Made by a program: the position numbers and the translations under genes. 64,000 nt of DNA from the NCBI RefSeq assembly GCF_019649055.1, contig NW_026570229.1, positions 1,674,001-1,738,000 on the forward strand, in the 5' to 3' direction. Shown here piece by piece: positions 819-36,848 of the stretch; positions within the stretch are counted from its first letter, which is position 1, and the number at the start of each line of letters is the position of its first letter. The notes under the pieces are model-generated. The model made no database searches and was not told the origin of the DNA. It saw nothing but the letters and a program-made list of their open reading frames with translations. This DNA comes from Paramacrobiotus metropolitanus (Eukaryota; Tardigrada; Eutardigrada; Parachela; Macrobiotidae).

Positions 819-884
819 CTATCCGGTATTTCGGTGGCATGGTCGATGAGGTAACTTTCAATTACGGTGCGGTCACGGATTAGG

Positions 885-7755: not shown

Positions 7756-7757
7756 TA

Positions 7758-8695: not shown

Positions 8696-8697
8696 TA

Positions 8698-15335: not shown

Positions 15336-16198
15336 ACACCGTTCGCGTTTCTCTTTGAACATGCAGCAGTTTTTATTGGCTTTTGTTGTGTTTATGCTGA
15401 ATATGATGTTCGTAGCAAAATCCGCCGTCATTTACTGACACTTTAGTATTATTACTTTTCAATTTCCGTGTGCTGTATTAGCAAGTTCTGATCTGTGATA
15501 TCAGTGATAAATCCATTGTACAGAATTGCAGTGCAACTTTTATCAGTGTGGAGGAAACCGATATGCAAGTTTTGAACAAATCATGTCTTTGTTGTGCACT
15601 TCAGTATTTCTAGTCCGTTTTTTCGTTGTGTTACGAATGGAAATAAAAAAGCGTAGAAGTACTGCATTTGAGTAGGATACAAGCGCTTCCATTAGTATAG
15701 CGTAGATATCGTAGATACGAGCACGCGTATAAGCAAATTCCAATAAAAGCCCATAACATCATTCCTGCTCAGCTGACTTAAAGAGGCATACTTACATACA
15801 AGTGTACATCTTCGTATGTATTCAGCGTAATTAGCCAAAAAATTAATTAGGGCGTTTCGTTGGTTTATATCCAGCTTTTTTTTAGTTGCAACACGATCAA
15901 GCAACATTGTCATGTTAGAAGAAGGCAGGTCATTAATAAACAAAAACTAGTTTGCATCTCCAACGTACGTAAAAACTAAAAATATCAAAACAACGAAATA
16001 AAAATCTTTGCACGTCGCGTCTGCCCAACCAATCACAAGACCAGGTATGCCCGGATTGCCGAAGTCTGAGTCTTAGGTGAAATCACACGCCGATTGCCGT
16101 TAGTATTACAACCAGTTTATCAGTAGCACGGGACTGGCTTCCTAATTCCCTACAAACGCAACATAATCACATAAGCATCGATAACGTACAGTTATTTA
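15336..16198. other. Convergent 3' spacer of unit A
   Basis: Sequence between two convergent genes, AT-rich, with AATAAA-type strings (near 15642 and 15999) usable as polyadenylation signals. No gene is seen. Related spacers occur at 20690-21566 and 27908-28744. Confidence 0.5.
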
Positions 16199-17309
16199 CT
16201 AGACGATATTATGTACCGTATATGTCTCGCAGATAAGGTCTAAAAGGTCAATCAGTGCCTGCGACTGGATGTGTTGATTGTGCACCTACAAAACAGCCCA
16301 TTATAGTTATTCTGCATGCTTAAATTGCCGGGCATTAAAAAACCGAGTTTTTCGCAAAGAAAAACGAGGCAAAACGTAATCTGCAAATTTACCCCGTTGA
16401 CGACTATCCACGGAACGGCGGTCAGCTGGGGATCCAGAGATTCGGTGCGCACGCCCATCACGTGCTCCAGCTGGTTTCCTTCGGAGCTGGTGGAGCAGGT
16501 GTCGATGGGGCGAAGTCGATGTCTTGTTGTTTGGCACACTGCAACGTCAACCATCATCATCAGCAGTACAATACAAAATTTTATACAGTGGGTGTATCTC
16601 ACATCAGGTCCGGCGGAAGACGGATCCGTCGCCGTTTCCATGCAATTAATCAGCGTTAGCACGCGGGGAATATTTGTCGCCGGGTCCACTACGTTTTGCG
16701 GGATGTACTTCAGCGCACATGACTACAAAACAAATTTTAAGTGCTCTCCAAAAAGAATAATTGCAACTGAAACCTAAAAGAAACACTACCGAATGTGGAC
16801 AAAATGCACCAACAACCGCGCAAATTGTTTAGCATATAAATGCATTATACTTCTATCGTAAAATTTACCTCGACAATGTTTCCGACGCATTCGCGAGGTC
16901 CATGCTGACAGGTGAAATCCCAGTTATCTCCGTCTTTCGTTTGCTGCAAAGAAAATAAAGTTTGATTTTGACACTACGCTGAGTGTTCCATTAAGCTGCA
17001 GGATACCGTTGCTTTCCCGTAGGGGACCATAGATACGTTTACAATACTGATGATCTGCTGCACGGTCGGGTATAGTTGATTCTTAATAAACGCGATACTG
17101 TTGGGGCACAGAGTTTCGTAGAACACCTCCAGCAGCACTGGCTCCGCGTCGGCAGCTCCTCGGTGGTGATGATGGTGGTGGTGATGACGGTGATGGTGAT
17201 GATGGTGGCGATGGTGGTGGTGTCGGTGTTCGGGAGATTTCGACCAAGTAACAGTCAGTGCCAACGCTAAGCTGCACAGCAACAGAAGAACTTTACCAGA
17301 AAACACCAT
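16199..17309 (-). pseudogene. GILT-like thiol reductase copy 1, frameshifted in exon 4
   Basis: Five exons: 17309-17007, 16943-16869, 16722-16603, 16538-16393, 16285-16199. A signal peptide is followed by a His/Arg tract (19 His in residues about 28-49). Next come the active-site region YETLCPNS (C68, with Ser at 71 instead of the second Cys) and VPYGKAT. The GILT signature CQHGPRECVGNIVESC is split over exons 2 and 3, and PWIVVNG lies near the C terminus. GILT enzymes reduce disulfides in lysosomes. Exon 4 is 146 bp, against 147 in copies 2 and 3. A run of five C (coding strand) is four here (16507-16510), which breaks the frame before DTCSTSSEG. It may be a real pseudogene or a homopolymer sequencing error, since the rest is intact. 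Confidence 0.85.
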
Positions 17310-17672
17310 CTTGTCGGTTGCGCGTTGATAATAGAACCAGGATTGAACTAAGCGGCAAAATGAAACAAGTTAAATCCTCTGCGTAGAGACCGTGTTGTTA
17401 GTGATCAGGCGAAGTGTCAGATGATACTCCGAATGCGCATAATGGGCAACGATTACACTGTTGGCAAGACAATGGCTTATCACTCAGACTCGCTTTATCG
17501 GCATCGCACGCAAATCATCATGATTCGAGTTCAAAGACCGTTGTGTTTCACCTGCCGACGTACCGTTACATTGTGTTAACATTTGTATCTCGTTCTGCGG
17601 GATCAGAGATGTCTATGTGAGCATGTGGAAGTTCTCCAATATGCTTGCGGATCTCCGGTCTTTTGCGCCTAA

Positions 17673-18441
17673 CCAGGGCACATTTTCCGGGTCTAAATTC
17701 AGAAAATTCTGATCTTTTGTAGAAAGGTAGAGTACTACCCTAGCATGCTTAAAAAATAACTTTATCTGCAAAGGCTAAATAGGCGTGGCCTACCAACACT
17801 TAAATTATTACATAGTATTGCATGCTATATGTATTATCTTATTTATCTATTATGTACTAGTCTATCTATCTGTACTGTACTACCGTATCTCGCATTAGTC
17901 GATGACTCGATGCTGGCTTTTTTGTAGTTTTGTTTTGATCTGCGGGCGCGGCAGTAGATGGGGACTCTTTCAGCACGCGTGCCCATGCAGTTCAAGCCAT
18001 TTTATTATTTCTCTTACTCAAAATGTTTTATAATATTACCTAAACCGTTAACAAAGAATGCTTGTACGGATGTGCTGGCAATTCAGTCGATAACGAATTT
18101 TGAAAATCTATGAATTGGCAACAGCGGGAGTGACATCGCACACGCGCGTTAATGACATCGGTTCTAGAAAGTAAAAACTGGTAGGACCATTAAGTACTAA
18201 TGCAAAACCCGCAAAATTTGGTTATTACGGAAAAAGCCTGAATGAGTACTGCACAGATGGGCTGTAACATACGCCTAACAATAATAAGTCCGTAGTACTA
18301 TGTACCAATTTAATTATGTTTGGCCACGCCCCTTGAGCCTTTGCAAATGAAATTATTTTTTCAAGCAAACTGGGGTAGTACTCTACCTTTCTACAAAAGA
18401 TCAGAATTTTTCTGAATTTAGACCCGGAAAATGTGCCCTGG
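17673..18441. mobile_element. Non-autonomous DNA transposon, long TIRs, TAA duplication
   Basis: A 769-bp element. Terminal inverted repeats start CCAGGGCACATTTTCCGGG. The first 75 bp are nearly identical and similarity continues to roughly 145 bp (left arm to about 17817, right arm from about 18296). TAA flanks both ends (17670-17672 and 18442-18444). A 3-bp TWA duplication is typical of PIF/Harbinger elements. No transposase frame lies inside. It sits upstream of GILT copy 1, between array units A and B. Confidence 0.75.
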
Positions 18442-18875
18442 TAAAACAACTACTTTACTCGTAGTGATACCCACAACTGAAAACAGCCGGCAGTCCGTTT
18501 TCACTGAATTTGGCATACGCCATACGGTATGTCGGCTGTCGCTGACTGGTACGGCTTTTGTCTGTTTGCTTAATGAAAATTTTTGGCTTGACCGACTCTG
18601 CTGTAAGCATCACATTTTTTATTGTTCTAAATTTTAATTTATTCAAGAAGTATAGCGGTGCCCTTTTTGTTATTTTGATTGTTATCAGTAACTTGTAAGT
18701 AAAAAATACAAAAAGCAGTAAACCTACGCAATCATAAAAGATTGTACAGTGTAGAGATATACAGGTAATGGTGATTTTGGTTTTTTTGCCGGCCCGGTCG
18801 TAGTGAGTCGTGACAGTGTCCACGGCCCATGACATTGCCCGCAACATAGTCTGTTGCGGTTGTAAACATAAAAGG

Positions 18876-19637
18876 GGCTGACGGTTGCTCAGCTCAGCAC
18901 CCTCTGTACTTACCGCGTCACCCGGCTGGAGCTTTACGTTGTTGACGTGTGGGAGTAGGATCACGCCTGGACGTACATACGGGTGGATCCTGACTGTCTG
19001 CCTTCCCCCTGCGACATACGGGAATATCTAGTCAATCAGTGCTGTGATTTGCTGTTCTCTCTAGTTATGTGCGGTATGATGTTACCTAGCCGAAGTCTAT
19101 ACAAATCCATGTTCTCACTAATATCATACCAGTCAGTTACCAGTTCTGATTTCTGACTTGTCTAGTTACGATTTCCTTGTGCTGTGGACTGTGATGAGAA
19201 TTGAATAAAGAGACAGCAATACTTGTTCCTTTGATGAACACGATCGTTCTCAGATTATTGCATAGAATACAGGTTTTCTCGTGTCACAATCGACCTAGTT
19301 CTTGCCGATCCTCACAGAACCTACGACCGGAAGTTGTGGTTAAAGTGTTCCTGCTTAGAGATTCCTGGTTCCTGAGTTCCTGAACGTACCTATCGTTCCA
19401 TCTTAGTTTCCTGTAACAGTTGAGACAGAGTCTGCCTACCGCACTGAGCATACAGGCGTGGAAGAGTAAAGATTGTTCATGGAGCCTTAACCGGCGTGAA
19501 CGTTTATACACGACAATGGGGCTAAACATGGTGCTTATGTACCGCGCCTGGTTTAACCGTATATATTGCCGCAACGTCATACTCCAGCCGGGTGACGACA
19601 GCAGGTACAGCGGTGTTGAGCTGAGCAACCGTCAGCC
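18876..19637. repeat. Diverged inverted repeat around a 630-bp spacer
   Basis: Segment 18876-18943 and the reverse complement of 19571-19637 share GGCTGACGGTTGCTCAGCTC and TCACCCGGCTGGAG with scattered differences between. Both arms read outward into similar ORF fragments (LQPGD...ELSNRQP), so this is one repeated sequence in opposite orientations. I could not define outer boundaries or a target duplication. Confidence 0.6.
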
Positions 19638-20044
19638 AATAAATTTTACATCATTAGGTTTTTTGCAGTTTAAATATTTTTAATCAGATCATACATGCAA
19701 CGTGTAACGCCGTACGGCGACAATATGTACCTTATGGTTTAGCGTTAAATCAATTCCTGGTATGCGGTAGAGAGGCGGTGCCGGTGCAAACACGCTCATT
19801 GGCTGTGTGAGTGGCCAAACAACAGAGAACTAAGCATAGCGCTAACAGGGCAAACTACAGGTGCGCAGTTATAACAGAATCTGTAGTACCGAATTTCATG
19901 GTGCAGAGCGCTGGCGGCAATAAGTCACTGCAGTAACAGATTTCCACGTGACAGCTAACATTTCCATGTAGAGCACATTTTTCTGTACATTTTGGTTATG
20001 GTCTTGGTTTTGCTAACAGATCATTAGCTGCATGAGCAGTATTT

Positions 20045-20097
20045 AAAGTCGCTGTTTCGAACATGTGCTTAGTGACAGAAACAGCGACTTCCGGAAA
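20045..20097. repeat. Short hairpin
   Basis: AAGTCGCTGTTTC near 20046 and GAAACAGCGACTT near 20086 form a 13-bp perfect inverted repeat just upstream of the truncated DUF4773 copy B. Confidence 0.6.
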
Positions 20098-20212
20098 CTC
20101 GTAGGTTTTCACGAACTGCCGTCCGTACGCGGCTGCCCTGTCGCATAACGTCAATTATGTCTTTTATTTCTGTTTCTTATAATTTGGATGATGTATATTA
20201 ACGGTGTTGCAG

Positions 20213-20689
20213 GGTGTGCCGAAATCGTGTATATGCCGCAGTCACTAGGCGCGTCCTTCATCCTGGAAGTGGATAACTTCGTCCTGGTTAACAAGACCGT
20301 TTCCGGTACGTCGAACGCTTTCAACTCGATGTACTTCAATGTGAACTCTGGTAACATATAAATACATGTGACATCGCAGATAATGATAAGGAGATACAGT
20401 GTATGGCGAAATCGGTTATGCAGGGCAAGCGTTTAAGGCTCTTGTTGCTCTATATACAGCACGTGACCCGGCCCCGCTATGCTACACCATTCCGCAGATC
20501 CCGCTGGATGCCCAGCTGTGTCTGCAGGTGTACGATCTGGACTTCAACTGGGCCAAACTGGACATTAGCGGCTGTGTGAATTTCCAGGGAAAACTCGAAG
20601 GCATGTCGATTTTGACCATCAAGCTGGGCTGCTTCAATCTGCCGCTGAAGGAAGCGCCGCGCGGACTGCATGAACGGGAGGAACTGTAA
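20213..20689 (+). pseudogene. DUF4773 copy B, 5'-truncated
   Basis: Only the last two exons are present: 20213-20305 (93 bp, GCAEIVYMPQSLGAS-type) and 20460-20689 (230 bp, ending HEREEL stop). Both have the same sizes and phases as copy A and near-identical protein sequence. I could not find the first exon, with the signal peptide and the CxC...CACC cluster, in the 1.5 kb upstream. That stretch holds repeats instead. Unless an exon lies further away, the gene cannot make a secreted product. It faces GILT copy 2. Confidence 0.75.
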
Positions 20690-22355
20690 ACACCGTTCCC
20701 CCTTTATCTTTGAACAGGGAATTGTCTAATGACCTTTGCTGTGTTTATGCTGAATATGCTGTTAGGAGCAAAATACGCTGTCATTTGCTGACACTAGTAT
20801 TCTTACTTTGTAATTTCCGTGCTGTAGTACCATTAAGTTTTGATCTGTGATATCAATGATAAATCCACTGTACAGAATCGTATTGAAAATTTGCAAATAG
20901 ATATATTACTTTTGAACTTTTGCACAACTCATTGCTTTTACATGAACTTTAATATTTTAGTCCGCTTTTTCGTTGTGGTTCTTGTGAGTGAAAATAAAAA
21001 GCGTGAAGTTTAATTACATTTTTCTATTAGTATGAAAACACAGCATAGCATAGACACAGAAATGTATGTACGTATGTATGATAGATACAGAACTGCAACT
21101 ATTCTGTATAAGCACTTTCAACAAAAACCCACAATATTTATTCCGTTACGCTAACTTAAATGCAACATATACGAGTACATCTTCGTTCTCGGCGTAATAA
21201 ACCTAATTATTTAAATCAAAGGATTTAAACCTAAAGTTAAATTTAAGTCATTTTGCGTATGCACTTTTCGGCTTTTGACCAATAAAGAGAGTAAACCTAA
21301 AAATTAAGCTAACGGAAAAGCGTCATTAACCCATTTCATTGGTAATCCAACTTTTCAAAGGTTCCAGCCCATTTCATTGGTTAATTGGTTATTCAGCTTT
21401 TTAAAGGTTGCAGTACAATTTACAACAATTTTCACGTTAGAAGAAGATCATTAACCAAAATACACTGTCTGCATCTCACATGTACGTTACGGTACTTAAA
21501 ATAAAAAATTAGCGAAATAAAAAGGTCTTCCCATTGCATATTTATAAAACCAAAGTATTTAACCAGTCACAAGGCCGGTATTTCCGGAGGCAGAACACTC
21601 TTCGGTGATATGCAATGCCGGTTACCGGTAATATTAGGCAAACTTATTCGTTGCACGCGTCTGGTTTGGTTCCCTAAAAACACAAAATAATCACATGGAA
21701 ATCGGTTACATCCAGCTACATATTTGCTAGACGGTGTGTCACTGTGTACCGTATATGTATCGCAAATAAGGCCTAAAAGGTCATACAGCGCCCGCGACTG
21801 GGTGTGTTGATTGTGCACCTAAAAAAACGTTAAGTCTATGGCATCGTTTGTAACTGTGTCAAGAAAAAGGCAGAAAACCAGGCAAACCGTTTTTTAAAAG
21901 TTTACCCCATCAACGACCATCCACGGCACGGCGGTCAGTTTTGGATCCAGAGATTCGGTGCGCACGCCCATCACGTGCTCCAGCTGGTTGCCTTCGGAGT
22001 TGGTGGAGCAGGTGTCGATGGGGGAGAAGTCGATGTCTTGTTGTTTGGCGCACTGTAAGTTAACCATCAGCATAAGCCGTGTACGACAGAAAGCAATACA
22101 GTGGGTATGCCTCACATCCGGTCCCGCGGAAGAGGGATCCGTCGACGTTTCCATACAGTGGATCAACGTCAACACACGGGGAATGTTTGTCGCCGGGTCT
22201 ACTACGTTTTGCGGAATATACTTCAATGCACACGACTGCAAATTTACAAATTTTACTTTTTAGGCCGACATTTTACTTACAGTTTTTACTTTATGAAGTA
22301 CAGTTTTTATAGTTAACATAAACCTGGCAAAACTATATCTTACCTGGCAAAACTA

Positions 22356-22542
22356 ATTTTGCGCGTAAATGCACATAACCATGAAGACCGTTTTGACACG
22401 GATCCAGACTTCTACGATTTTTTTCAAATTTTAAAATGAATTTTAAAATTTTTGAAATTCATTTTAAAATTTGAAAAACATGCTCGAATAGTGGATCCGT
22501 GTCAAAACGATCTTCATGCTTATGTGCATTTACATGCAAAGT
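22356..22542. repeat. Foldback repeat in the GILT copy 2 intron
   Basis: Outer arms at about 22367-22406 and 22492-22531 (containing GACACGGATCCA and its complement) pair almost perfectly. Inner arms built of AAATTTTAAAATGAATTTT-type sequence fold on themselves, so nearly the whole 187 bp forms a hairpin. The right half and the following 100 bp are related to 46861-47060. Confidence 0.8.
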
Positions 22543-22649
22543 TCGAAAGGGATCGGTCCATAATGAGACTTTTGGTACACCTGAATGCATTTAAACTTTT
22601 TGGAATTTTGTGACCCTCATAACTCCGCAACCGGATGTTGCGCGCGAAA

Positions 22650-22700
22650 ATCTGCAATATCTGCAATATCTGCAATATATTTAATATCTGCAATATCGGT
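22650..22700. repeat. Short tandem repeat, ATCTGCAAT unit
   Basis: Four to five near-perfect 9-10 bp copies of ATCTGCAAT(A) in the intron between exons 1 and 3 of GILT copy 2. Confidence 0.8.
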
Positions 22701-23679
22701 ACATCTGTGATATGTGACTTGTGTAACAGCGTTTTTTCGTTGCGTCGTTCTGTATACTACTGAAGTAGTACTGAAATTCGGAACCCTGAACGTCAATTGA
22801 AGCAAATCGCTGTCGATATACTCAGCGGATCGTTCTTAAAAATTCGCCGGACTTAAACGGATTTCACGCCTATGTACACCAATCATTTGCCTACACAATG
22901 TCAAAAAGCAACCCAAAAAAGTGTTTAAAAGTGCGCGAAAGCGAATATTCCCGTCAATGTACTACATGATTTTAGTGCTATGTACCGGGCCAAATCCCTT
23001 AAGCTGCAGGATACCGTTGCTTTCCCGTAGGGGACCATAGATATGTTCATAATACTGATGATTTGCTGCACGGTCGGGTATAGTTGATTTTTAATAAACG
23101 CGATACTGTTGGGGCACAGAGTTTCGTAGAACACCTCCAGCAGCACTGGCTCCGCATCGGCAGCTCCTCGGTGGTGGTGGTGGTGGTGATGATGACGGTG
23201 ATGGTGATGATGGTGGCGATGGTGGTGGTGCCGGTGTTCGGGAGATTTTGACCAAGTAACGGTCAGTGCCAACGCTAAGCTGCACAGCAGCAGAAGAACT
23301 TTACCAGAAAACACCATCTTGTCGGTTGCGCGTTGATAACAGAACCAGGATTGAACTAAGCGGCAAAATGAAACAAGTTAAATACTCGGCTTAGAGACTG
23401 TGTTGTTGTTGATCAGGTGAAGTGTCAGATGATACCCTGAATACGCATAAACATGTCTTGTACGGGCACCGATTACACTGTTTGGAAGACAAAGACTTAT
23501 CACTAAGACTTGTTTTATCGGCATTGCAAGTAAATCATTATGGTTTTGACGATGAGTTCAAAGACTGCTTTGTATCGCCATATGTAGTAGAATTTGGAGG
23601 TTTGCTTATTACACGCGAACGGAGCGAGCGTGGATGCTCGGGTTAATTCATTTTGGGCAAAAGTTTGATTATATAATTA

Positions 23680-24124
23680 CCGTAATTATCGAATTTGTGG
23701 CCCTGGGGTGCAAATAGTTCGAAGGTCATGGCGGAGGGGGGCTTCTTTCGGGGGGTGGCATTATTTTTCAAACGGCATATTTTGAAAGGGTGCAATATAC
23801 TTCAAACAATTGCGCATCGTTTTCTAGTGAAACTGAACGCAGTAGTTACCGGTATATGCAACTACAATATTACGAACAATATTTTGGAGCATAATTATTC
23901 CTTTTGGAGCAGATGTCCGTTTACTGTTTATCAATCATTTAACAACAATTGTTAGGAAGAAATTTGCGGTATACCTATAATTTTGCAGCACTTGACATTT
24001 AATAACGGCCCCCTGGGGCGTAAATTCGGGGGGTCGCATTATTTTTCAAACATGATCGGGGAGGGGGGCTCATTTCAGGGGGGGATCTTATTGCGGGGGG
24101 GAGCCACAAATTTGATAATTACGG
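23680..24124. mobile_element. MITE with TA duplication and G-run interior
   Basis: A 445-bp element bounded by 21-bp inverted repeats (23680-23700 and 24104-24124, one mismatch; CCGTAATTATCGAATTTGTGG) and flanked by TA on both sides (23678-23679 and 24125-24126). Next to each end lies a G-rich block with runs of six to seven G and a shared GCATTATTTTTCAAAC string. There is no coding capacity. The TA duplication points to Tc1/mariner-type mobilisation. Confidence 0.75.
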
Positions 24125-24564
24125 TAGACACAATCATGTCTCTAACCGTCATACCCAAAGATGCAGGCATAGACAAAACTATCACCAAGTAGTCAATATT
24201 GTAGTAATCCCAGCAAAACAATAAGCCAGAAGTAATTATAAAGGCGATAAAAAGCGACAGCAGCGGCTACTACGTATTGCAGAAGTACACGTTATTAGGA
24301 TTATTCTATGTTTGATGGAACCGGAAAACGGCGGCTCGTACACATAGAATTTAACCTAAAACGATGTGGTCGACACTGACAGAAAGCCACTAATATTAAA
24401 CGAATAGAGCATGTACCAGTGATAATAAGAACAAGTTGATCAGTTATACAGTATAAGACAGGATCAACATTATACACTGGACCGGCATACTTGTAAGCAC
24501 ATTTCGCGATCGGTAAACTGTTTAGAAGCGCGCATGGTGGACGGTATGGCTGCTTTGGAGGTAA

Positions 24565-25317
24565 CTACTTGCATCCATCGCAAGAATAGACCCCGCAACT
24601 GATCGGATCCTTACGGCACTTACACACGCCGTCCACGCAATGGCCACCACTGCGGCAGTAGTGCACAATACAGTACAGGGCGCATACCGTGTCCGAGCCC
24701 AGGGTGATCGGCCCGAAGCCCATTCCTCCCAAGACGCCACAGGTAATTTTTGTGTTCTCCAGGGCTTCTGTATAAAGCACACATAATGTTCATCGAGTAA
24801 GATACTGAAATGGCTGAAGTTACAATATGTTTACTAACAAGATTCCGGATTATTGATGTACCAGGTCATTTCGTTTAAGTAAAGAGTATTGTGGTTGAAA
24901 TGTTACGGAGAATCCGCAGTTTCATTGTATCGCCTGTGCATAATTAGAAGACCTTGCCCATCACTCACCGGTGGTTGTGGTGACTGCAGCTGCAGTTGTA
25001 ACATTGGCGGTCGTTGTAGTTTTAGCCGTGGTAGTGTGAGCCGGTGTAATGACCACCACTTCCATCGTCTGATAGCGCGGAGTAGTTCCTGTGGTAGTAC
25101 CCGCTGCTGTAGTTGGCTTACCCGTAGTGCTTGCTACTGGTGCTGGTGCGGGCGCTGGTGTAGTAGTAACTGGAGGATTTGTGGGGTTAATTGGATTAAT
25201 CATCGTATATGGAGCAGCTGTTAAAGGAGGAGCTCTGGTGGCACCCATGGAAAAATGGAGCTCCACGGAAACTATAGCCTCAATAAGCAGCACTGTGCAA
25301 AGTATAGTATTCGCCAT
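24565..25317 (-). CDS. Secreted Thr-rich stalk plus CS-alpha-beta defensin
   Basis: Exon 1 25317-24969 and exon 2 24767-24565, phase-1 junction (GTGAGT donor), 183 aa. Residues 1-19 are a signal peptide (MANTILCTVLLIEAIVSVE). Residues about 25-116 are rich in Thr, Ala and Pro and should carry O-glycans (mucin-like). Exon 2 encodes a cysteine-rich domain: C126, C145-x3-C149, a GG doublet then C160, C165-x-C167. This is the C...CxxxC...GGxC...CxC order of invertebrate defensins, with C154 extra. A tail adds C174, C179 and C182, for ten cysteines in all. An antimicrobial peptide released from, or displayed on, a glycosylated stalk is the likely role. The first exon is shared with the macin gene at 30.5-32.8 kb. 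No protease site between stalk and domain is obvious. Confidence 0.85.
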
Positions 25318-26700
25318 TTTGTCGTAGAAAATTTAATCGTAGGTGGTTAATTCTAAAGGCAAGTGCAAAAAGTTTTGTGTCCGGCAGGTGTGTTATCCAG
25401 TGTCTTTTTCCGCCAAAGCTGATAGACACAACATTTATTAAGTACGGCTCCGACATTTTATGTTTATATGGCGACAGAAAGGTCACAAAGAACGGCAACT
25501 GCTGTGCTTCGTGCCTGGGAAAACCGCTAATAAAATCAAGGACAGTATACCCCGGCTTAGAAAGTCGGCTCCTGATTTGAATGTCTGACATTAAGTGAAA
25601 GTTATGACTATGGGAAGAGTAAGCATTATAAAAGGTGTTTTACAACACCGACAATGAAAAAGCACTAAAACAGTATCATAGCAGTAAATGGAGCCAAACA
25701 AATAAAAGGCGTTTCTTCGTTTTATGCGCCCCGAAATTCCGTTTCGATCCAGTGTCACACACAGCCCAGGTTCTGCTTCGTAATAACGGTGACGCGACAC
25801 GGTTCAGAAACAATGTATTTCAGGGTTTGACCAACTTTATCGTGGTTTGACTCTTGTCCTGAACAAACACACCGGTAATGTGTCACTAACTGTCTTTCGT
25901 AATTCTCCCATGGTAATCAAAAGGAGAATGGGATCGAGCACCGGTTGAACGAGATACAGTGCCAGCGTCAAATTAACCACCGTCTCGCTACCGTAGTCAC
26001 GGTCGAAAGCGTACAACGTATAGTATACTTCGTATGGCGTCCAGCACACAAGGACGCTTAAGGTCAACGCGGAGAACACCCAAAAGGAAGCATGCTGCGA
26101 TTCAGCATAACCAGTTCTAGGCTTTTCCGTAACTGCGCTGCGCTGCTTTTTTAACCGGAAAGTAACAAATATCCACGAAGCCGCCATAATGACGATGGGT
26201 GCATCATAAATCAGCAGCATCACTCCTTTTTTCCACATAACAAGAATCTCTGGTATCTGTAACAAAGTAAGGTTAAAAAATAGCCAGTTAATATAACGAT
26301 CCAGATATCTGAACGCTTATGCGTTTATTGCTCGGTTTACGGCAAATTTCCGCAGTTGTACCTGTGGCATTTCTGTAGAAAACATTTGATCATAAAATAT
26401 ATAAAACAGCAGTTGAAGGGTTTTCGCAGTTCGCGGCGGTAGCACAGAAGCGTTACCACGAAGGAGTTCAAAAGAAGAGCTAAAATACTGCATACGGCGG
26501 TGCAAATGTACTCAAAGCCCCAAACAACTTCTAACGTGGTTAGACTGTACTCAAAGCCCCAAACAACTTCTATCGTGGTGAGACTGGCATTCGTGGATAA
26601 ATTCAAAGCGGGTAGTGTTTACGCAGACATTTGCTGGTTGAACACCTTCCGGTTCATCGGTAAGACGCAATGCGGTCATTTCACCCGATCTGTATCGTAA
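24780..26700. repeat. Segmental duplication unit, copy 1 (peptide leader plus GPCR)
   Basis: From the stalk exon (24969) to just past the GPCR start (about 26700) this DNA matches 32377-34490 in direct orientation. The match is nearly base for base across 25440-26260 versus 32960-33780. Differences include a GPCR deletion and a 39-bp tandem duplication here. Related, more diverged stretches lie at 27490-27654 and 34620-34760. Confidence 0.85.
25837..26606 (-). pseudogene. Class A GPCR, array copy 1, deleted TM2-TM4
   Basis: Exon 2 (26256-25837) is intact, with TM5-TM7 motifs VMLLIYDAPIVIMAASW, CWTPYEV and VQPVLDPILLLIT, and a good CAG acceptor. Exon 1 (26606-26362) keeps TM1 and then jumps from KPFNCC directly to the segment before the donor. 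Relative to the copy at 33.4-34.5 kb about 300 bp is missing, covering TM2-TM4. A 39-bp tandem duplication repeats the SLTT(I/L)EVVWGFEY block. Compared with copy 2, a one-base gain before NLSTN puts the original start out of frame. A functional receptor is not expected. Confidence 0.85.
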
Positions 26701-27057
26701 TCCGATTTAGCTAAGACGAATAAAGCGCAAAATTATACTTGGGGTCCTGAGCTGGAAACCGTTAGCTACCTAGTTTTCTTCCCGAGAAACGCCAGCCAAC
26801 CATAAGCTGTTTAACTGAGGCACAACTACTGTGTTGACTCTCTGAGCTGAGCTAACAAAATGTCTTAGTGGCCACGTTTACGTTCACTTTACAGCTTAAA
26901 CGAACAATCGACAAATGCAGCAGCTACGGAAAATCCGCTTCTTTTTGCACATATGTAATGTTTGTGTAGTTCGGTATTATTATTCGTGATTTTAACGTTC
27001 AGTCGATCAAGTTACAAGTGACTGAAACGTGATCTACCGGATGCTTCAGCTTAATTA

Positions 27058-27306
27058 TTAAGCTATCGAAAAAACTGACAGGTTATGTCTATACTGGATG
27101 CACTGAAAGTTTGGATGATGTGGCATATAGTTACACATATGGCACGTTTTCGTTGTCACTCTGTAACTGAAAACCGGCCCATCTTTTCGGTCTGCATTTC
27201 CAGAAGCAGCGGTCGGTGTTCTTGTACCTACCCGGGCGGGCGCCGTCGCTCTGGCTTCTATCGCAAAGGGGTATTCTACAGAAACTAGAGCCAGAATAAT
27301 CATCAT
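27058..27306 (-). CDS. Diverged peptide-leader paralogue (possible remnant)
   Basis: An 82-codon frame starting with a hydrophobic signal-like segment (MMIILALVSVEYPFAIEARA), then a short Ala/Thr/Arg/Pro stretch, then TKTCHMCNY and one more Cys. The VSVE string and the position relative to conserved upstream DNA (27480-27654 matches the 5' flank of the defensin and macin genes) mark it as a third paralogue of the shared leader exon. The long Thr stalk is absent and I found no cysteine-rich second exon between 26700 and 27058. It may be a decayed copy or a short secreted peptide. Confidence 0.45.
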   Translation of the reverse strand: MMIILALVSVEYPFAIEARATAPARVGTRTPTAASGNADRKDGPVFSYRVTTKTCHMCNYMPHHPNFQCIQYRHNLSVFSIA

Positions 27307-27677
27307 TGTTCAAAGTACAGTAAATCGTCCTTCTGGCTAGAAGAACATAGGGTCGTAACTTACAAACAGCTGCATACAGTTATGCTGTGTTTGGCAGCTT
27401 TTATGCCAAAATCCTTGTCCTCGAGGCTTCTTTATGAGCCGCAGACGATAGTCGTAAATATTTACTACGTGCAGACGCGAGAATTTACGTTTATATTGCG
27501 ATAGAAAGGTCACACACAGCGGCAACTGTCGAGAGTGTTCGTATCTGGTAAAACCACTAATAAAGTCGGCTTTGATTTGAATGTCTAATCTTAAAACCAG
27601 TAACGGTTAAGGCTATGGGAAGAGTAAGCATCATAAAGAACGTTTTACAACACCGACTCTTGTTGCTATCTATACAG

Positions 27678-27907
27678 CACGTGATCCGCCACCGCTGTGC
27701 TACACCATTCCGCAGATCCCGCTGGATGGCCAGCTGTGTCTGCAGGTGTACGATCTGGACTTCAACTGGGCCAAACTGGACATTAGCGGCTGTGTTAACT
27801 TCCAGGGAAAAATCGAGGGCCTCTCGATTTTGACCATCAAGCTGGGCTGTTTCAATCTGCCGCTGAAAGAAGCGCACCGCGGACTGCATGAACGGGAGGA
27901 ACTGTAA
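27678..27907 (+). pseudogene. DUF4773 copy C, last exon only
   Basis: A 230-bp open exon from the CAG acceptor at 27675-27677 to TAA, nearly identical in protein to the last exons of copies A and B (ARDPPPLCYTIPQIPLDGQL-type start, HEREEL end). The DNA directly 5' of about 27654 is not DUF4773 sequence. It is the 5' flank of a peptide/GPCR unit, so a recombination joint lies there and the first two exons are gone. It faces the intact GILT copy 3. Confidence 0.8.
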
Positions 27908-28744
27908 AAACGGTTTCCGTTCCTCTCTGAACATGCAACTGTTTAATGACCTTTGTTGTGTTTATGCTAATTATGCTGTTCGTGGCAAAATCCAATGTCT
28001 TTTGCTGACACTGTAGTATTTACTTTTTAATTTCCGTGCTGTATTAGAAAGTTTTGATACCAATGATAAATCTGTGATATCAATGATACATCCTTTGTAC
28101 AGGATCGTAGTAACAAGTTTTCCAAGTAGAGGAGATCGATATGCCAGATCTGCCAAATTATTTTCTTTGTTATGTACTTCAGTTTTTCTAGTCCGGTTTG
28201 GTTCTCGGTTTCTCGGTGTGGTTCTTACAAGGGAAAACAGAAATTGGAATGTATTTAATTACATTTTTCTATTAGCATAGCATAGACATAAGCACTTCCA
28301 ACAAAAACCCGTAACATCATTCGTTCCCGTTAAGATAACTTAAATGCAGCATACATATCTGCGTTCTCAGCGTAATTAACCTAAAAATCAGGCTAACATA
28401 AAAGCATAATTATCGCGCTTTATTGGATATCCAGCTTTTTTCGAATGTTGCAACACAATTAAGCAACAATTGTCACGTTACAAGAAGACCATTAACAAAC
28501 AAAAACTCGTTTGCATCTCATGCAAATCTGTACGTAAAATAACAGAATAATGAAATAAAAATCTGCGAAATCTCTCGCATGTGCACAATAACAAGACCAG
28601 CTGTCCTGGAGGCAGGACAATCTCAAGTGATATCAAATACCGGTTGCTGTTAGTATTAAGCAAACTTATTCGCTGCACGCGTCCGGTTTGGTTCCCTAAA
28701 AACACCAAATAATTCCGTAGATATCAATGAAATACGGTTACTTC

Positions 28745-29859
28745 CTAAACGATTTGTACCGTATATGTATCGCAGATGAGGCCTAAAAGGTCATACAGCG
28801 CCCGCGACTGGATATACTGATTGTGCTTCTACAAAAAAACCAGCATGAAAATCTTGCAGTATGCAGCATTTCACGAATCCGTTCCGCTGCACGATGCATA
28901 ATTTCTACGCGAACCGACATCGAGGGAAATCATCTTTTGAATGCTTACCCCGTTGACGACCATCCACGGCACAGCGGTCAGTTTCGGATCCAGAGATTCG
29001 GTGCGCACGCCCATCACGTGCTCCAGCTGGTTGCCTTCGGAGTTGTTGGAGCAGGTGTCGATGGGGGCGAAGTCGATGCCTTGTTGTTTGGCACACTGCA
29101 ACGTCAGCCATCATAATCAGCAGTGCAATAACAAAATTTTATACAGTGGGTATGTCTCACATCAGGCCCCGCGGAAGACGGATCCGTCGCCGTTTCCATG
29201 CAATTAATCAGCGTTAGCACGCGGGGAATATTTGTCGCCGGGTCCACTACGTTTTGGGGGATGTACTTCAACGCACACGACTACAAACCAGCAAATTTTA
29301 AGTGTTTTCCAAAAAGAATTGTTACATGAAACTCGCTAATAAAGAAACAAGACCGAATGCGTACACAATGCACCAACAACCGCGTAAATTGTTTATCATT
29401 ATACTTCTATCTTAAAATTACCTCGACAATGTTCCCGACGCATTCTCGAGGTCCATGTTGGCACGTAAAATCCCAGTTATCTCCATCTTTGGTTTGCTGC
29501 GAGAAAATAAAATTAGGATTTTGATGCTACGCTGAGTATTCCAATAAGCTGCAGGGTACCGTGGCCTTTCCATAAGGAACCATGGATACGTTCATAATAC
29601 TGATGATCTGCTGCACGGTCGGGTACAGCTGGTTCTTAATAAACGCGATACTGTTGGGGCACAGAGTTTCGTAGAACACCTCCAGGAGTACGGGCTGCGC
29701 ATCGGCAACTCCGCGATGATGATGATGGTGGTGATGATGATGACGGTGATGATGGTGGCGGTGGTGGTGGTGCCGGCGTTCGGGAGATTTTGACCAAGTA
29801 ACGGTCAGTGCCAACGCTAAGCTGCACAGCAGCAGAAGGATTTTACCAGAAAACACCAT
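28745..29859 (-). CDS. GILT-like thiol reductase copy 3 (intact), His-rich
   Basis: Five exons: 29859-29560, 29496-29422, 29280-29161, 29095-28949, 28828-28745. All junctions are phase 0, giving 241 aa. Signal peptide residues 1-20, then a His/Arg tract with 17 His. The thioredoxin-like active site reads LCPNS (Cys with Ser in the fourth place). VPYGKATQTKDGDNW leads into the signature CQHGPRECVGNIVESC, an exact fit to CQHGx2ECx2Nx4C. PWMVVNG and a conserved C-terminal QSRALYDLLGLIC follow. GILT proteins act in lysosomes or are secreted, and take part in antigen processing or invertebrate innate immunity. The Ser in place of the second Cys is seen in some invertebrate members and should limit the dithiol mechanism. 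This is the only copy of the three with complete exons and frame. Confidence 0.92.
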
Positions 29860-30512
29860 TTTGCCGGCACGTGCTATTAGCGAAACAAGGACTGTGGAAA
29901 ACGGTAGGGTGCAACAAGTTAAGTACTCGGCATGGCGACTGTGTTGTTGGTGATCAGGACATCAGGTGAAGTGTCAGATGATACTCCGAATGCGCATAAA
30001 CATGTCTGCTGTGCATAGCGATTACACTGTCCGAGTACAATGCCTTATCAACAGACATGTTTTATCGGAACGGCACGTAAATCATGATTTGAGTCCAAAG
30101 ATTGTTGTGTACCGCCTGGCTGTTGTGCTGTGTTAACGCACGAAACTCTTGTGCAGTTTCTTCTGGATCGACTCGACTTTGTGAATTGTAGATGTTATTG
30201 TAGGTACATGCGTTAAAATCAAATCTAGTACTGCGTTAAAATCAAACCTAAATTTTGAAGTTACATAACAGTATCGTTATTATTAGAGCTATTTAATCGT
30301 ACTAGCGGTTTTTTTTAAAAATATGGAGTTAGTGTTATTCTTTTACAACAGGCCGATACCATCACATTCCCTGTTATCCAAAGAACAATCAGTTGTTTTC
30401 TTAAGCAGCAGCGTTTTATGTGCTCTCCAATAACGTTACATATGTACTGTTCCACATCATTATCGCCCAGTCGATTATTAATTAGAAAATCGGGACAGCT
30501 CGATTGACTGGA

Positions 30513-32821
30513 CTAAAGTCCGAGCCAGCAAGTGAACGCGTCCTTTACAGCAAAAAACACTTGAGCCAGGAATGGGGTGGGATCTGTATCGTCCGTCAGC
30601 AAGTTCAGTGGAGCGCATTCGCAATGATATCCTCCACTGCAGACTCCACTGTACGGCATGCACTGGCCATTCGCTTTGCCTTTGCATTTCTGACAGAATT
30701 CAGCACAGCTTTTCCACAATATCCCCGTGAAAGCAGCCGTTGCCGGAGTGCAGCGACTCCAGTTGTCGTAGCAGCTGTGCGTGTAGCCGTCTGCAAATTT
30801 GGACGTCAATGAAAATCAGTTTACCTAAAACGCTTGCTTTAGTGTGGACAGCAGTATCTTTAAAACATAAACTGCCATATGCACAATAACGATAATTTCA
30901 ATGTTTTAAGTTTAGTAATGCTATGAGTGTATTGTGTACTGTGATATATGGTTCTGTTGGTTCTCGTGATCCCTTTCTTTTCATATTTTCTACCTTCTTA
31001 GCAACTATCTTGTCTTCTCTCCTAGCTACGCTTCTCGACTTTCCTATTCATTCAGTTACTCCCGATCACGCTACGATTCTGACAATAAAGTTACGATACG
31101 CATTCACAGTACATACACTACATGTACTGTCCCTTCTCATGTGAGATTTTATTTTTCAATATGTACATCAACGAGCACCACTCAGTCTAATACCATCAAA
31201 TGAAGAATTTGTCCCAGTTAACACGAGAAGGGACTGTGCTTAATATGCTCATAGCATTATCCCGCATAATCTCCAAACTTAAACGTTGAAACAAAAAACA
31301 AGTGGAACGACTCTCGCCTGTTCGCATAAACAGTTTCTTACCGATCTCTTTCAACAAAACAATTGTGCCATTACAGTATGTGCCAAATGTCTCGCATGTA
31401 ATGGGAACAAAATGACAACGATCAGTAAGCGACTTGTACGTCCCCATCTCATGTTAATTCCCACTTCCCCTTTCTCATGTTAATTGGAATAAATTCTTTA
31501 TTTGATTGTGTTTACTGAGTGTGTGCTCGTTGATGTAAATACTGTGAATACAGTAATAGTATAACTGCATCCTATCAAAAGCATTACACTCACTCAGAAC
31601 TTAAATCACAAGTGCACATGTGCCTTTTCTACGGTTCAGAAAGCGATTCGACAACAAAGGTATGTTTTATCTACACATTTTGCGCAAGTGGCAGGGCTTC
31701 AGCAAACTGTAGAGCACGCGCGTTTTAGCAAACCCTTTATTTCACTTTAATTACTTATTATCATGTTCACACTCGTTACAATGTTACAATATCCTGTTCA
31801 GACAGCTTATTTCTCGCAAATAAGATAAATGAATTCTAGAGAATGATGCTGGTTTGTTAAGGCTGTTAATTATTTGTTAGAAATAAAGTTTGCTGATCAC
31901 CCCAAAAGGTTATCGACCCCAAATTTGGTTCTTGCAAGGTCATTAAGGACAAGGGTCTTATACAAGCCAAAGAGGTATACATCCATTGAAACTTTCATTT
32001 TCATTCCAAATGATTTAACTATGCGGCATTTAACTTTGCTTACGAGATGCCCACATCATATACTCGCTACTCCCGCTAATGCACTCACCCGGAACTTAAA
32101 TCACAAGTGTTTGCCTTCCGTTATTTTATTCCGCGTTGCGGCTCTGGTTCTTGACCCCTTACACTTTCACTCTGACCCCTAAAGGTCACTCTGACGATCA
32201 TAAACGTTGAAATACCTATGTGGCTATGTCCTACTGCGCCACATATGTTTTTCTCACCGACTCAGGAAAGCTTTCATCAGTTACCATTGCAGTAACCGAT
32301 TTCGATACTGATACTTCAAGGGAAATTAACACTTGTCACTGTACTGCCTCCTTCTACGACCTGTCTGATAACTCACCGGTGGTGGTGGTGACGGCAGCTG
32401 CCGTCGTCACGTTGGCGGTGGTTGTTGTTGTGGCCGTTGTAGTGTGAGCCGGTGTAATAACGACGACATCCATGGTTTGGTACTGCGGAGTAGATCCTGT
32501 GGTAGTATCCGCGGTTGTTGTTTTGGCCGTTGTAGTATGAGCCGGTGTAATAACCACAACATCCATCGTCTGATACCGCGGAGTAGAACCTGTAGTTGTA
32601 CCCGCTGTTGTAGTCGGCTTACCCGTAGTGCTCGGTACTGGTGCTGGTGCGGGCGCTGGTGTAGTAGTAACCGGAGGAGAATTGGTTGGGTTTATTGGAT
32701 TTCTCATCGTATATGGAGCAGCTGTTAGAGGAGGAGCTCTGGTGGCACCCATGGAAAAATGGTGCTCCACGGAAACGATAGCCTGGATAAGCAGCACTGT
32801 GCAAAGTATAGTATTCGCCAT
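30513..32821 (-). CDS. Secreted Thr-rich stalk plus macin antimicrobial domain
   Basis: Exon 1 32821-32377 and exon 2 30790-30513, phase-1 junction identical to that of the defensin gene, 240 aa. Exon 1 encodes the same signal peptide (MANTILCTVLLIQAIVSVE) and Thr/Pro/Ala stalk, but with the TTTGSTPxYQTMDVVVITPA block present twice. Exon 2 matches macins (hydramacin/theromacin family): C155YDNWSRC162, TGILWKSC177, C181, C184, C192, C199, YHC205EC207 and a late C236-W. Ten cysteines is the theromacin number. Macins permeabilise or aggregate bacteria. The intron is long (1.6 kb) and contains a MITE, so an additional small exon cannot be excluded. A separate start just before exon 2 lacks a signal peptide. 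Confidence 0.82.
31165..31536. mobile_element. MITE-like element with about 75-bp inverted ends
   Basis: The sequence from 31165 (ACATCAACGAGCA) and the reverse complement ending at 31536 align over about 75 bp with moderate divergence, including GAAGAATTTGT/AAAGAATTTAT and GTTAACACGAGAAGG/ATTAACATGAGAAAGG. The total is about 372 bp, with no coding capacity. No clear target duplication is visible. It lies in the intron of the macin gene. Confidence 0.6.
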
Positions 32822-33355
32822 TTTGTCGTAGAAAACTGAAACGTAGGTGGTTGATTCTAAAGGCAAGTGCAAAAAGTGTTGTGTCCGGCAGGTGTTTTAG
32901 GCAGGTGTGTTATCAAGTGTCTTTTTCCGCCAAAGCTGACAGACGCACAACATTTATTAAGTATGGCTCCGACATTTTATGTTTATATGGCAACAGAAAG
33001 GTCACAAAGAGCGGCAACTGCTGTGCTTCGTGCCTGGGAAAACCGCTAATAAAATCAAGGACAGTATACCCCGGCTTAGAAAGTCGGCTCCTGATTTGAA
33101 TGTCTGACATTAAGTGAAAGTTATGACTATGGGAAGAGTAAGCATTATAAAAGGTGTTTTACAACACCGACAATGAAAAAGCACTAAAACAGTATCATAG
33201 CAGTAAATGGAGCCAAACAAATAAAAGGCGTTTCTTCGTTTTATGCGCCCCGAAATTCCGTTTCGATCCAGTGTCACACACAGCCCAGGTTCTGCTTCGT
33301 AATAACGATGACGCGACACGGTTCAGAAACAATGTATTTCAGGGTTTGACCTACA

Positions 33356-34462
33356 TTATCGTGGTTTGACTCTTGTCCTGAACAAACACACCGGTAATGT
33401 GTCACTAAATGCCTTTCGTAATTCTCCCATGGTAATCAAAAGGAGAATGGGATCGAGCACCGGTTGAACAAGATACAGTGCTAGCGTCAAATTAACCACT
33501 GTCTCGCTACCGTAGTCACGGTCGAAAGCGTACAACGTATAGTAAACTTCGTATGGTGTCCAGCACACAATGACGCTTAAGGTCAACGCGGAGAAGACCC
33601 AAAAGGAAGCATGCTGCGATTCAGCATTACCAGTTCTAGGCTTTTCCGTAACTGCGCTGCGCTGCTTTTTTAACCGGAAAGTAACAAATATCCACGAAGC
33701 TGCCATAATGACGATGGGTGCATCATAAATCAGCAGCATCACTCCTCTTTTCCACATAACAAGAATCTCTGGTATATGTAACAAAGTAAGGTTAAAAAAT
33801 AGCCAGTTGATATAACGATCCAGATATCTGAACGCTTATGCGTTCATCGATCGGTTTAGGGCAAATTTCCGTAGTTGTACCTGTGGCATTTCTGTAGAAA
33901 ACATTTGATCATAAAATATACGAGTATAAAACATAATGATGATAGGCAAACAGGCAAGATTGGTGTAGATAATCACGATAAAAATGAGGCAAACAGCTAA
34001 GAAATAACTGTGGCGATGTTTAAAAGAGAACGGAAAAGCCACCGCCCAGACGCGATTCCCGGCGACGAGCGCGTGAAGGTTCAACGGAATGCCAGCGACC
34101 ACCCAATACATATACTGAATAAACGCCGACACCGATTTGCCCACCAGGTTCCTATTAATGAGATCTTTGGTGATATTTATCCAGCCGAGAATGCTTATTA
34201 ATCCATCAGAAATAAGTATAACAATCAGATAGCAGTTGAAGGGTTTTCGCAGTTCGCGGCGGTAGCACAGAAACGTTACCACGAAGGAGTTCAAAAGAAG
34301 AGATAAAATACTGCATACGGCGGTGCAAATGTACTCGAAGCCCCAAACAACTTCTAACGTGGTTAGACTGGCATTCGTGGATAAATTCGAAGCAGCAGTG
34401 TTTACGCAGACATTTGCTGGTTGAACACCTTCCGCTTCGCTTGTAAGACGTAATGCGGACAT
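33356..34462 (-). pseudogene. Class A GPCR, array copy 2, lost splice acceptor
   Basis: Exon 1 (34462-33881) is full length: glycosylation sites NLS and NAS, TM1 through TM4, NRVWAVAFP after TM3, and a donor CAG|GTACAA. Exon 2 (33775-33356) carries TM5-TM7 with CWTPYEV and QPVLDPILLLIT. Both frames are open and would give 333 aa. The acceptor is CAG in copies 1 and 3 but reads CAT here (33776-33778). The next AG, 8 bases on, would shift the frame. Either the intron is not removed correctly or an unusual acceptor is used. Otherwise it is the best preserved partner of copy 1. If the acceptor change is a sequencing error, this is a functional gene. Confidence 0.8.
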
Positions 34463-34940
34463 TTTTCACGATCTGTATCGTAATCCGATTTAGCTACAAG
34501 CCGAATAAACAGCAAAACAATTTTTCGAACACTGAGCTGGAAACCGTTAGCTACCTGGTTTTCTTCCCCGAGAAACTCTTCCCGCTAAAAGCTTACAGTA
34601 AGATCGTATTTAGCAGAGATACAACTGTCGAGAGTGATCGTATCTGGTAAATCCACTAATAAAGTCGGCTTTGATTTGAATGTCTAATGTTAAAACCAGT
34701 AACGGTTAAGGCTATGGGAAGAGTAAGCATCATAAAAAACGTTTTACAACACCGACAATGAATGCGCTGAAAACGTTATCGAAGCAGCAAATGGAGCCAA
34801 ACAAAGAAGATGATTTTACAGATTTTGGTCGTCCCATAAATCTGCCAACATGTCATCTGTTTGTGTTTCGGCCAAGTACCGTCGCCCAGGTTGTTCTTGA
34901 TTACAACGCAACACGGTCAGACAGCTGATTCAGCCTAACT

Positions 34941-36056
34941 TCATCGTTGTTTGACGGTTGTCCTGAGTAAACGCACCGGCAGCGTATCGCTGACTGCTTT
35001 TCTTAATTCTCCCATGGTGATTAAAAGGAGAATAGGATCGATCACCGGTTGAACGAGATACAGCGCCAGCGTTAAATTAACCACCGCATCGCTGCCGTAG
35101 TCGCGGTCAAAAGCGTACAACGTATAGTACACTTCGTATGGTGTCCAGCACACAATGACGCTTAAGGTCAACGCGGAGAATACCCAAAAGGAATTCGCGG
35201 CATGCTGCGATTCAGCGTAGCTATTTCGTGGCTTCTCCGAGATCGCATTCCGCTGCCTTTTCAATCGGAAAGCGACAAATATCCAGGACGCTGCCATCAT
35301 CACGATTGGAGCATCATAAATTAATAACATTACTCCTTTTTTCCACATAACAAGAATCTCTGGTACCTGCAAAAATAAAATAAACAGTCATTAAAACGAT
35401 TCAGGTAACTCAATGATGATTCGTCGTCCTACAATTTAGAGCACGATTTTGTTGTTGGTGTTACAAATGTGCAGTTGTACCTGTGCAACGTCTGTAGCAA
35501 ACATGTCATCGAAAAATACATCGAACATGATAACGACCGGCAAACAGATTAAATGGACGTAAAATATGGCGGCACATATAAGACACACAGCAAAAGAATA
35601 ACTGTGGTGCAGTTTGAAAGAGAACGGATAAGCCACCGCCCAGACGCGATTACCGGCGACGAGTACGTGAAGGTTCAGCGGAATGCCCGCAACCACCCAA
35701 TAAATATACTGCATAAACACGAACACCGCTTTACCCATCCGGTTCTCGTCGATGAAATCTTTGGCGATGTTGATGCAGCCGAGAAGGCTGATTAATCCAT
35801 CAGCAATTAGTATGGAGATCAAATAGCAGTTGAATGGTTTTCGCAGTTCCCGGCGCACAAGCAGAAACGTGGCCACGACAGAGTTCAAGAGAAGAGATAA
35901 AATACTACATACAGCAGTTAAGCAGTACTCGAAGCCCCAAACAATTTCCGTGGCACTGGTGGCGGAATTGGATATCCCAGAGTTTGTGCTAAAGTTCATA
36001 TAATGTAGACCTTTCAGTTCTTCCGTAAACGGTAATACGACTGCGGACATTTCCAT
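34941..36056 (-). CDS. Class A GPCR, array copy 3 (intact)
   Basis: Exon 1 36056-35481 and exon 2 35366-34941, phase 0, GTACAA donor and TTTTTGCAG acceptor, 333 aa. The N terminus has an NFS glycosylation site. TM1 is AVCSILSLLLNSVVATFLL. TM2 contains LIADGLISLLG, so the TM2 Asp is kept. TM3 ends GNRVWAVAYP instead of DRY. TM6 is VIVCWTPYEV and TM7 VQPVIDPILLLIT, so NPxxY is DPILL. The C-terminal tail is short. Same family as copies 1 and 2, and probably related to the intronless receptor at 9.3 kb. The ligand is unknown. Linkage to secreted peptide genes in the same duplication unit is notable but may be passive. Confidence 0.88.
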
Positions 36057-36848
36057 AGGTAGACGCTCCGCATCGTTATTCTACTTAAATGTGGAGTTTT
36101 TCAACGTTGTCATATGTACGATATAAAATAACATTTCTGCTACCAAGATGGCAGCCGTTAGCTTGTTTTCCTACGCGCCAACCGCCTAATAAAATGTTAC
36201 CGTTATGTGCTAAAGGTACTGGTTTGCCTGTGGTATTGGTTTGAACTAGCTGACACTGTCACAAAGAATATGCATACAGCTTAAGTAAACAAACCAGCCG
36301 GTGCAGCGTTAACGGAAATTCCAAACCTCTGGGGTGTGTTTTGCAAATACCGTATGGAAATGTTTCGCAGTTCGGTAAAATTCCTTGTTGTTTCAACTTG
36401 TATGCCTAATATTATTATAATGCAATTACGCAGAAGCAAAACATGGGATCGATTATACTACAGTGCAGCAGTCGCGCCAGTATATAATATTTTGGCGCGA
36501 TATTTAGTTTAGTTTAGCCTTAGGTCTATACAGATATTGAAACAAATTTTTATTTCCAGTACGCATACCAAGGAAAAGAGTTCTGGCATTTCCGGCTATA
36601 AACTAGCTATCTTTCGTAGAGCGAAATCACGATTACGCAGACTTTGGACTGCCGAATGGAAGTGCAGCAGAATACTATCACGGAATATCTACAAATACAC
36701 AAAGCAGCAATAGTGTAAAGGTGTACTCACATGCAACGATAAGTTGAACTACATGGATAACCAGCACGAAGCCTGCACCGTTTTCGAGTACGGTACGGCT
36801 CCATTAGTTCCTACAAAGTAGAATTAAAAAAGTTGATCTGCTTGCTGC
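36057..36848. other. Divergent promoter region
   Basis: About 790 bp between GPCR copy 3 (leftward) and the F-box gene (rightward); it should hold both promoters. I see no ORF or repeat of note. Confidence 0.5.

Follow-up and report, generated by a model that had tools for sequence, protein, structure and literature searches.

A Thr-rich leader exon predicted to precede a defensin head and a macin head in a tandem gene array of the tardigrade Paramacrobiotus metropolitanus

We analyzed a 64,000-nt stretch of the genome of the tardigrade Paramacrobiotus metropolitanus (contig NW_026570229.1, positions 1,674,001 to 1,738,000; the whole stretch is called the window below), in which two genes, A and B, share a leader and differ in the domain that follows it. 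Both lie on the minus strand, where the initial annotation had placed them (A at 24565-25317, B at 30513-32821). Each is predicted to have two exons: exon 1 for a signal-like start followed by a stalk rich in Thr, Ala and Pro, and exon 2 for a cysteine-rich head, which is a defensin with the cysteine-stabilized alpha-beta (CS-alpha-beta) fold in A and a macin in B. The predicted proteins are 183 and 240 aa long, and the exon junctions are predictions made from the DNA sequence (Table 1).

The first exon is constrained coding sequence. It encodes MANTILCTVLLI(E/Q)AIVSVE followed by the stalk, and the close likeness of the two copies, noticed at the outset, proved to be far above chance, extending over about 1.4 kb at 94.5% identity. 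Across the 116 codons shared by A and B, the proportion of synonymous differences (pS) is 0.266 and that of nonsynonymous differences (pN) 0.030, with a dN/dS ratio (omega) of 0.09 (Fisher p 4e-10 for the synonymous versus nonsynonymous contrast, on rounded counts). All length differences between the copies are whole codons (1 and 31 residues), the 31 additional residues of the B stalk having been gained through an internal duplication of 93 nt. Synonymous divergence (dS) is uneven along the exon and lower over the first 79 codons (0.21) than over the final 37 (0.64; p 0.014, from rounded counts), where pS is 0.43. Thr, Ser and Pro make up 47% of the stalk in A (99 residues) and 50% in B (131 residues). 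The composition is that of a mucin-type stalk, a long segment rich in Pro, Thr and Ser in a secreted protein, the signal peptide being judged by hydropathy alone. Neither stalk nor either join contains a dibasic or RxxR/RxxK site; the sole dibasic pair in the two proteins is at residue 168 of A, within the head.

The splice signals agree with the initial reading of a GTGAGT donor in phase 1 in both genes. The predicted donor is ACCACCG/GTGAGT in A and identical in B (the slash marks the exon boundary), the predicted acceptors are TTTATACAG/AA in A and AAATTTGCAG/AC in B, and both joins are phase 1 and in frame. The acceptor of A is at a homologous position, at most 2 residues off, to those of three relatives described below. 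The matching phase had also been taken as evidence of exon shuffling. The match stands, but in secreted human proteins introns are most often phase 1 (49.9%, according to an excerpt of PMC5308243), so the match is weak evidence on its own.

Reading upstream from either head exon, a stop is reached before any in-frame Met, so each head needs an upstream exon. The nearest one with a signal-like start is the stalk exon, at a distance of 201 nt (A) and 1,586 nt (B). A scan of the introns for other leaders, covering ATG-started open reading frames (ORFs) of at least 15 aa and GTRAG donors only, returned 19 ORFs (1 in A and 18 in B), none of which combines a hydrophobic start with a phase-1 GTRAG donor. 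The ORFs at 31452 and 30878 have a strongly hydrophobic start and no phase-1 GTRAG donor, and the only ORF with such a donor, at 31447, has a weakly hydrophobic start. The initial annotation had named separate leaders for the two heads as a result that would overturn its proposal; they were sought in part, in the head exons and the 19 intron ORFs, and none was found.

Head A carries the core CxxxC...GxC...CxC (C29xxxC33, G42xC44, C49xC51). It shares this core with the insect defensins coprisin and defensin A, and differs from them by four additional cysteines, a C-terminal extension and the stalk. The single sequence matches no Pfam family at E<=1. A four-sequence profile built from head A and three genomic relatives matches coprisin among PDB entries at E 6.3e-7 and other insect defensins there weakly (E 0.0025 and above), and with the core motif this upholds the original assignment to the CS-alpha-beta defensins. 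An AlphaFold model of head A built from four sequences had a mean predicted local distance difference test (pLDDT) score of 38.7, too low for use. A search with head A of the assembly, which comprises 169.8 Mb in 533 contigs and was used for all genome searches, gave four places at E<=10: A itself and the three relatives elsewhere (L004, L005 and L006), to which head A is 55-60% identical. By our reading of their sequence, L004 (with L015), L005 and L006 have a His-rich acidic exon between the signal-like exon and the defensin exon, and their defensin exons start at most 2 residues from the start of A's. The His-rich acidic exon is a possible metal-binding pro-region. The signal-like exon of L005 (1180-1255) seems frame-shifted at a T run, so that this locus may be damaged or misassembled, and tandem repeats of about 110 bases lie upstream of the defensin exon in L004 (1001-1421).

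Head B passes the Pfam Macin model PF14865 (E 3.7e-11, 43.9 bits, cut-off 27), and a two-sequence profile combining head B with its genomic relative finds theromacin at E 3.9e-12 and hydramacin-1 at E 1.5e-6, as expected of the macin that had been proposed. A search of the assembly with head B gave two places at E<=10, B itself and L008, a single-exon macin with its own signal peptide to which head B is 63% identical over 56 residues. The Pfam macin model finds nine places in the assembly at E<=1, and only B and L008 score above the cut-off. Head B thus resembles theromacin and hydramacin-1 by profile, with the stalk exon in the place of L008's short signal peptide.

The two heads are different families of one fold superfamily. 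They share the CS-alpha-beta core, in which three cysteines (29, 33 and 44) carry the same residue numbers in both; they match each other weakly (E 0.02 in a comparison of three sequences), and head A matches the macin L008 at E 8e-4. The second exons had been described as unrelated, which is right as to family, defensin in one and macin in the other, but not as to superfamily, given the shared core.

Table 1. Features of genes A and B and of the surrounding array (window coordinates)
Feature	Position	Strand	Details
Gene A exon 1, signal-like start (MANTILCTVLLIEAIVSVE...) and Thr/Ala/Pro-rich stalk	24969..25317	-	349 nt; dN/dS 0.09 vs B
Gene A predicted intron, GTGAGT...TACAG, phase 1	24768..24968	-	201 nt; from sequence
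Gene A exon 2, CS-alpha-beta defensin head, 10 Cys	24565..24767	-	
Gene B exon 1, near-identical signal-like start and longer stalk	32377..32821	-	445 nt
Gene B predicted intron, GTGAGT...TGCAG, phase 1, with dispersed repeats	30791..32376	-	1,586 nt
Gene B exon 2, macin head, 10 Cys	30513..30790	-	
Internal duplication in stalk B	32420..32614	-	copies 32420-32521 and 32513-32614; 93-nt shift
Relic third copy of leader exon	27275..27342	-	75% over 69 columns; promoter-like flank 27457-27657
Homogenized tract: 5' part of stalk exon, promoter, part of GPCR gene	25013..26401	.	94.5% identical to 32514-33920
Partner of homogenized tract in other unit	32514..33920	.	
Tandem array	14823..36080		DUF4773 at 15048, 20402, 27620; GILT-like at 16977, 22995, 29540; GPCR at 25837, 33356, 34941; by DNA similarity
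Dispersed repeat beside defensin head	23676..24126	.	at least 39 other places, 72-88% identical (40 of 186 first-look candidates scored)
Dispersed repeat in macin intron	30940..31120	.	three other places among the matches listed
MITE-like dispersed element in macin intron	31140..31560	.	inverted arms 31157-31232 and 31469-31544; 3' limit approximate
GPCR, G-protein-coupled receptor; MITE, miniature inverted-repeat transposable element.

How far does the stalk exon extend beyond these two genes? A 150-aa stalk query finds two places in the assembly at E<=1, genes A and B, and a 94-aa query finds four matches at E<=10, namely A, B, the internal repeat of B and one weak match with stops; weak or repetitive matches may escape the search tool. 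The idea of the stalk as a module mobile across the genome was rejected, since intact stalk exons occur in two genes only in this assembly. Within the window, further leader copies were sought in 1-14000, 14000-24960, 27460-32360 and 34000-64000, where scores stayed within the range of 20 shuffles each. The relic leader is the sole extra copy that stands out (0 of 200 shuffles scored as high). Two more copies of the stalk-promoter-like DNA, 97% alike, lie at 27523-27657 and 34622-34756; the former precedes the relic leader, and near the latter no leader exon was detected by alignment.

The stalk exon lies in a tandem array of DUF4773, GILT and GPCR genes, Pfam assignments covering copy 1 of DUF4773 and of GILT and parts of GPCR copies 1 and 2. 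Neither the genome search nor the leader scan of the window turned up a stalk exon following the first DUF4773-GILT unit. Aligned stretches between the A unit and the B unit are in general 75-81% identical, with three exceptions: the donor end of exon 1 (83%), a 135-nt stretch at 27523-27657 (97%) and the tract at about 25.0-26.4 kb (94.5%). Identity in 100-column windows of this tract ranges from 93% to 100% and drops to 88%, 82% and 79% toward the donor, and other pairs of units in the array reach 84% and 89% in places. The simplest reading is an old tandem segmental duplication followed by exchange that homogenized the promoter side. The shared exon came with the duplication, so no mobile exon is needed.

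On the head side, in contrast, 23580-24960 and 30119-32367 have no similarity, 41 of 50 shuffles of the whole blocks scoring as high. When a head exon was compared with the block of the other unit, the tail of unit 1 or the stretch beyond the relic leader (six pairings), 113, 155, 113, 23, 20 and 10 of 200 shuffles scored as high. By the same count, the figures were 70 and 116 for two intron comparisons, 185 for the 3' flanks and 34 for head exon A against head exon B. A hidden relic of the other head in each unit was thus not found at the DNA level. The divergence of the last 37 codons could hide neutral intron homology, so that an exact break at the donor is not proven. Dispersed repeats on the head side may have aided rearrangement.

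The initial annotation had proposed exon shuffling. One leader-stalk exon before two heads, and relatives of the heads with other leaders, agree with it, but the shared exon was carried by tandem duplication and the intact stalk occurs in two genes only. The other leaders on the genomic relatives of each head fit leader exchange and support a putative replacement of those leaders by the stalk exon, a pattern drawn from two genes and one relic leader.

Our preferred explanation, to which we give a probability of about 0.6, is that A and B are two secreted proteins in which a common leader-stalk exon would be spliced to different CS-alpha-beta heads, the heads being held on a glycosylated stalk. 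A multi-kilobase unit comprising the stalk exon, its promoter and the neighboring GPCR gene would have been duplicated in tandem, and later exchange would have homogenized the promoter side (about 25.0-26.4 kb and 32.5-33.9 kb), the head side coming to hold different exons in repeat-bearing blocks. For the defensin exon, the phase-1 acceptor would have been retained, and the signal and His-rich exons found in its relatives would have been lost. The macin exon would have acquired an acceptor near the old signal-cleavage region, its relative L008 being a one-exon gene that encodes a signal peptide of its own. Splicing would then join the leader-stalk exon to an insect-type defensin exon in A or a macin exon in B, giving co-regulated, secreted products that would be O-glycosylated on the Thr-rich stalk. 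A near-identical promoter, a signal-like start, a Thr-rich stalk, a Cys-rich head and no convertase-type site together suggest co-expressed and secreted proteins with stalk-held heads, and because the join lacks a convertase site the head probably stays on the stalk. It is plausible that the heads are held on a glycosylated stalk, which would keep each of them within a glycan layer at a surface (mucus, cuticle or the lining of the gut) as a fixed, not diffusible, defense peptide with presumed antimicrobial activity. A further step is doubtful: the promoter-leader-stalk cassette might be kept uniform by gene conversion with heads exchanged downstream, so that one glycosylated anchor would serve as a surface-fixed display of alternative CS-alpha-beta heads instead of releasing them as free peptides.

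Several observations weigh against this explanation. From the first Cys to the end, the net charge is +1 in head A versus +5, +5 and +3 in its three relatives, and -1 in head B versus +5 in its one relative; whole-exon charge is 0 in head A versus +2, +2 and 0. The macin cores carry +2 and +3, so the difference in B comes mostly from its longer C-terminal tail. Such low charges would fit a classical cationic, membrane-active peptide only loosely, and would count against a plain killing role for A and B. Hydropathy gives no clear membrane-spanning stretch in A or B, the best 19-residue means past residue 25 being 1.31 (A) and 1.37 (B); the B value belongs to the C-terminus, where the last 19 residues are moderately hydrophobic. 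Tethering would then depend on presumed glycans. The intact stalk is seen only twice, and may thus be a local accident and not a functional module. Finally, exon 1 left unspliced continues to a stop after GE in A or GELSDRS in B, so a stalk-only secreted protein is also encodable.

Among other explanations, an ordinary propeptide is possible, though on the improbable side: the Thr-rich segment would be removed on secretion to release free defensin and macin, the exon being merely a common secretion leader, as in frog preprodermaseptin. Precursors of the frog dermaseptin superfamily likewise place one conserved leader before divergent antimicrobial peptides (PMC3742671, in part), and the three defensin relatives of A also have a Cys-less N-terminal exon. 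However, the frog pro-piece is acidic and ends in Lys-Arg according to the same partial source, whereas the segment of A and B is Thr-rich, with no dibasic or RxxR site in the stalks or at the joins. The stalk residues are strongly conserved (omega 0.09) and the stalk is longer in B. Other proteases could still cleave.

The encodable stalk-only product leads to an unlikely alternative, in which the stalk exon alone forms a complete gene for a small secreted mucin-like protein that terminates at the in-frame stop closely following the apparent donor, with the defensin and macin exons as orphaned fragments. The stop does follow closely, one codon (A) or six codons (B) past the GGT that spans the donor, and GTGAGT could occur by chance. 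Against this, both heads are intact open exons with ends as in their relatives, the acceptor of A agrees with those of its three relatives, and both donors have been retained despite a dS of 0.64 in the last 37 codons. Very unlikely is duplication of one ancestral stalk-CS-alpha-beta gene whose head diverged in place to macin and defensin with no head exchange, since despite the common core and the weak matches given above, each head has far closer relatives at other genomic loci and macins are reported from a cnidarian, annelids and molluscs (in the extract from PMC5116183), so that the head split is far older than the stalk copies (dS 0.2-0.6).

Parts of this architecture are established elsewhere. 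In arthropod and mollusc defensins and in scorpion venom genes, a leader exon is likewise joined in phase 1 to a CS-alpha-beta exon, and the available portions of PMC5308243 and PMC5116183 propose leader exchange there; phase-1 junctions behind exchangeable leaders, and leaders common to divergent frog peptides (PMC3742671), are thus already known. Unlike in those defensin and scorpion genes, a single leader here serves two different CS-alpha-beta families that lie next to each other in one tandem array. Its exon also encodes a long stalk rich in Thr, so that the intron is well beyond the signal peptide. The closest functional parallel that we know for stalked heads would be DEFB126, a primate sperm-coating beta-defensin whose core is fused to a glycosylated tail and which is part of the sperm glycocalyx (PMC4735291, in excerpt). 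Its 20 O-glycosylation sites in macaque come from work cited in that paper, and the human sites are predicted. The tail of DEFB126 is C-terminal on a beta-defensin core, whereas the stalk of A and B is N-terminal and its glycosylation presumed.

As far as the literature was searched, the combination of a single Thr-rich stalk exon with neighboring defensin and macin heads is new. Titles and abstract openings in the open-licence literature gave no report of a Thr-rich stalk joined to a defensin or macin, which is weak evidence, and neither defensin nor macin occurs as a term in the main text, as available, of a paper on tardigrade immunity (PMC7056985). Two lipocalin-type searches of the assembly, aimed at the secretory heat-soluble proteins of tardigrades, gave 2 places and 1 place, the best of which proved by comparison with the PDB to be an ordinary fatty-acid-binding protein. 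If the predicted splicing is true, this single locus offers a compact case for dating and dissecting the exchange of leaders among antimicrobial families, with relatives that retain other leaders. If the heads are indeed held on the stalk, A and B would be an N-terminally stalked invertebrate counterpart to the glycosylated DEFB126, and surface-tethered defense peptides would become testable.

Two further observations concern the array itself. In the genome, six copies of the first ~300 bases of the intronic MITE-like element of gene B are 95-98% identical, which suggests recent spread. The GILT-like proteins (16977-17366, 22925-23377 and 29527-29961) have a long His-rich run after the signal-like start, and Pfam matches of the first copy to zinc and nickel transporters probably reflect composition.

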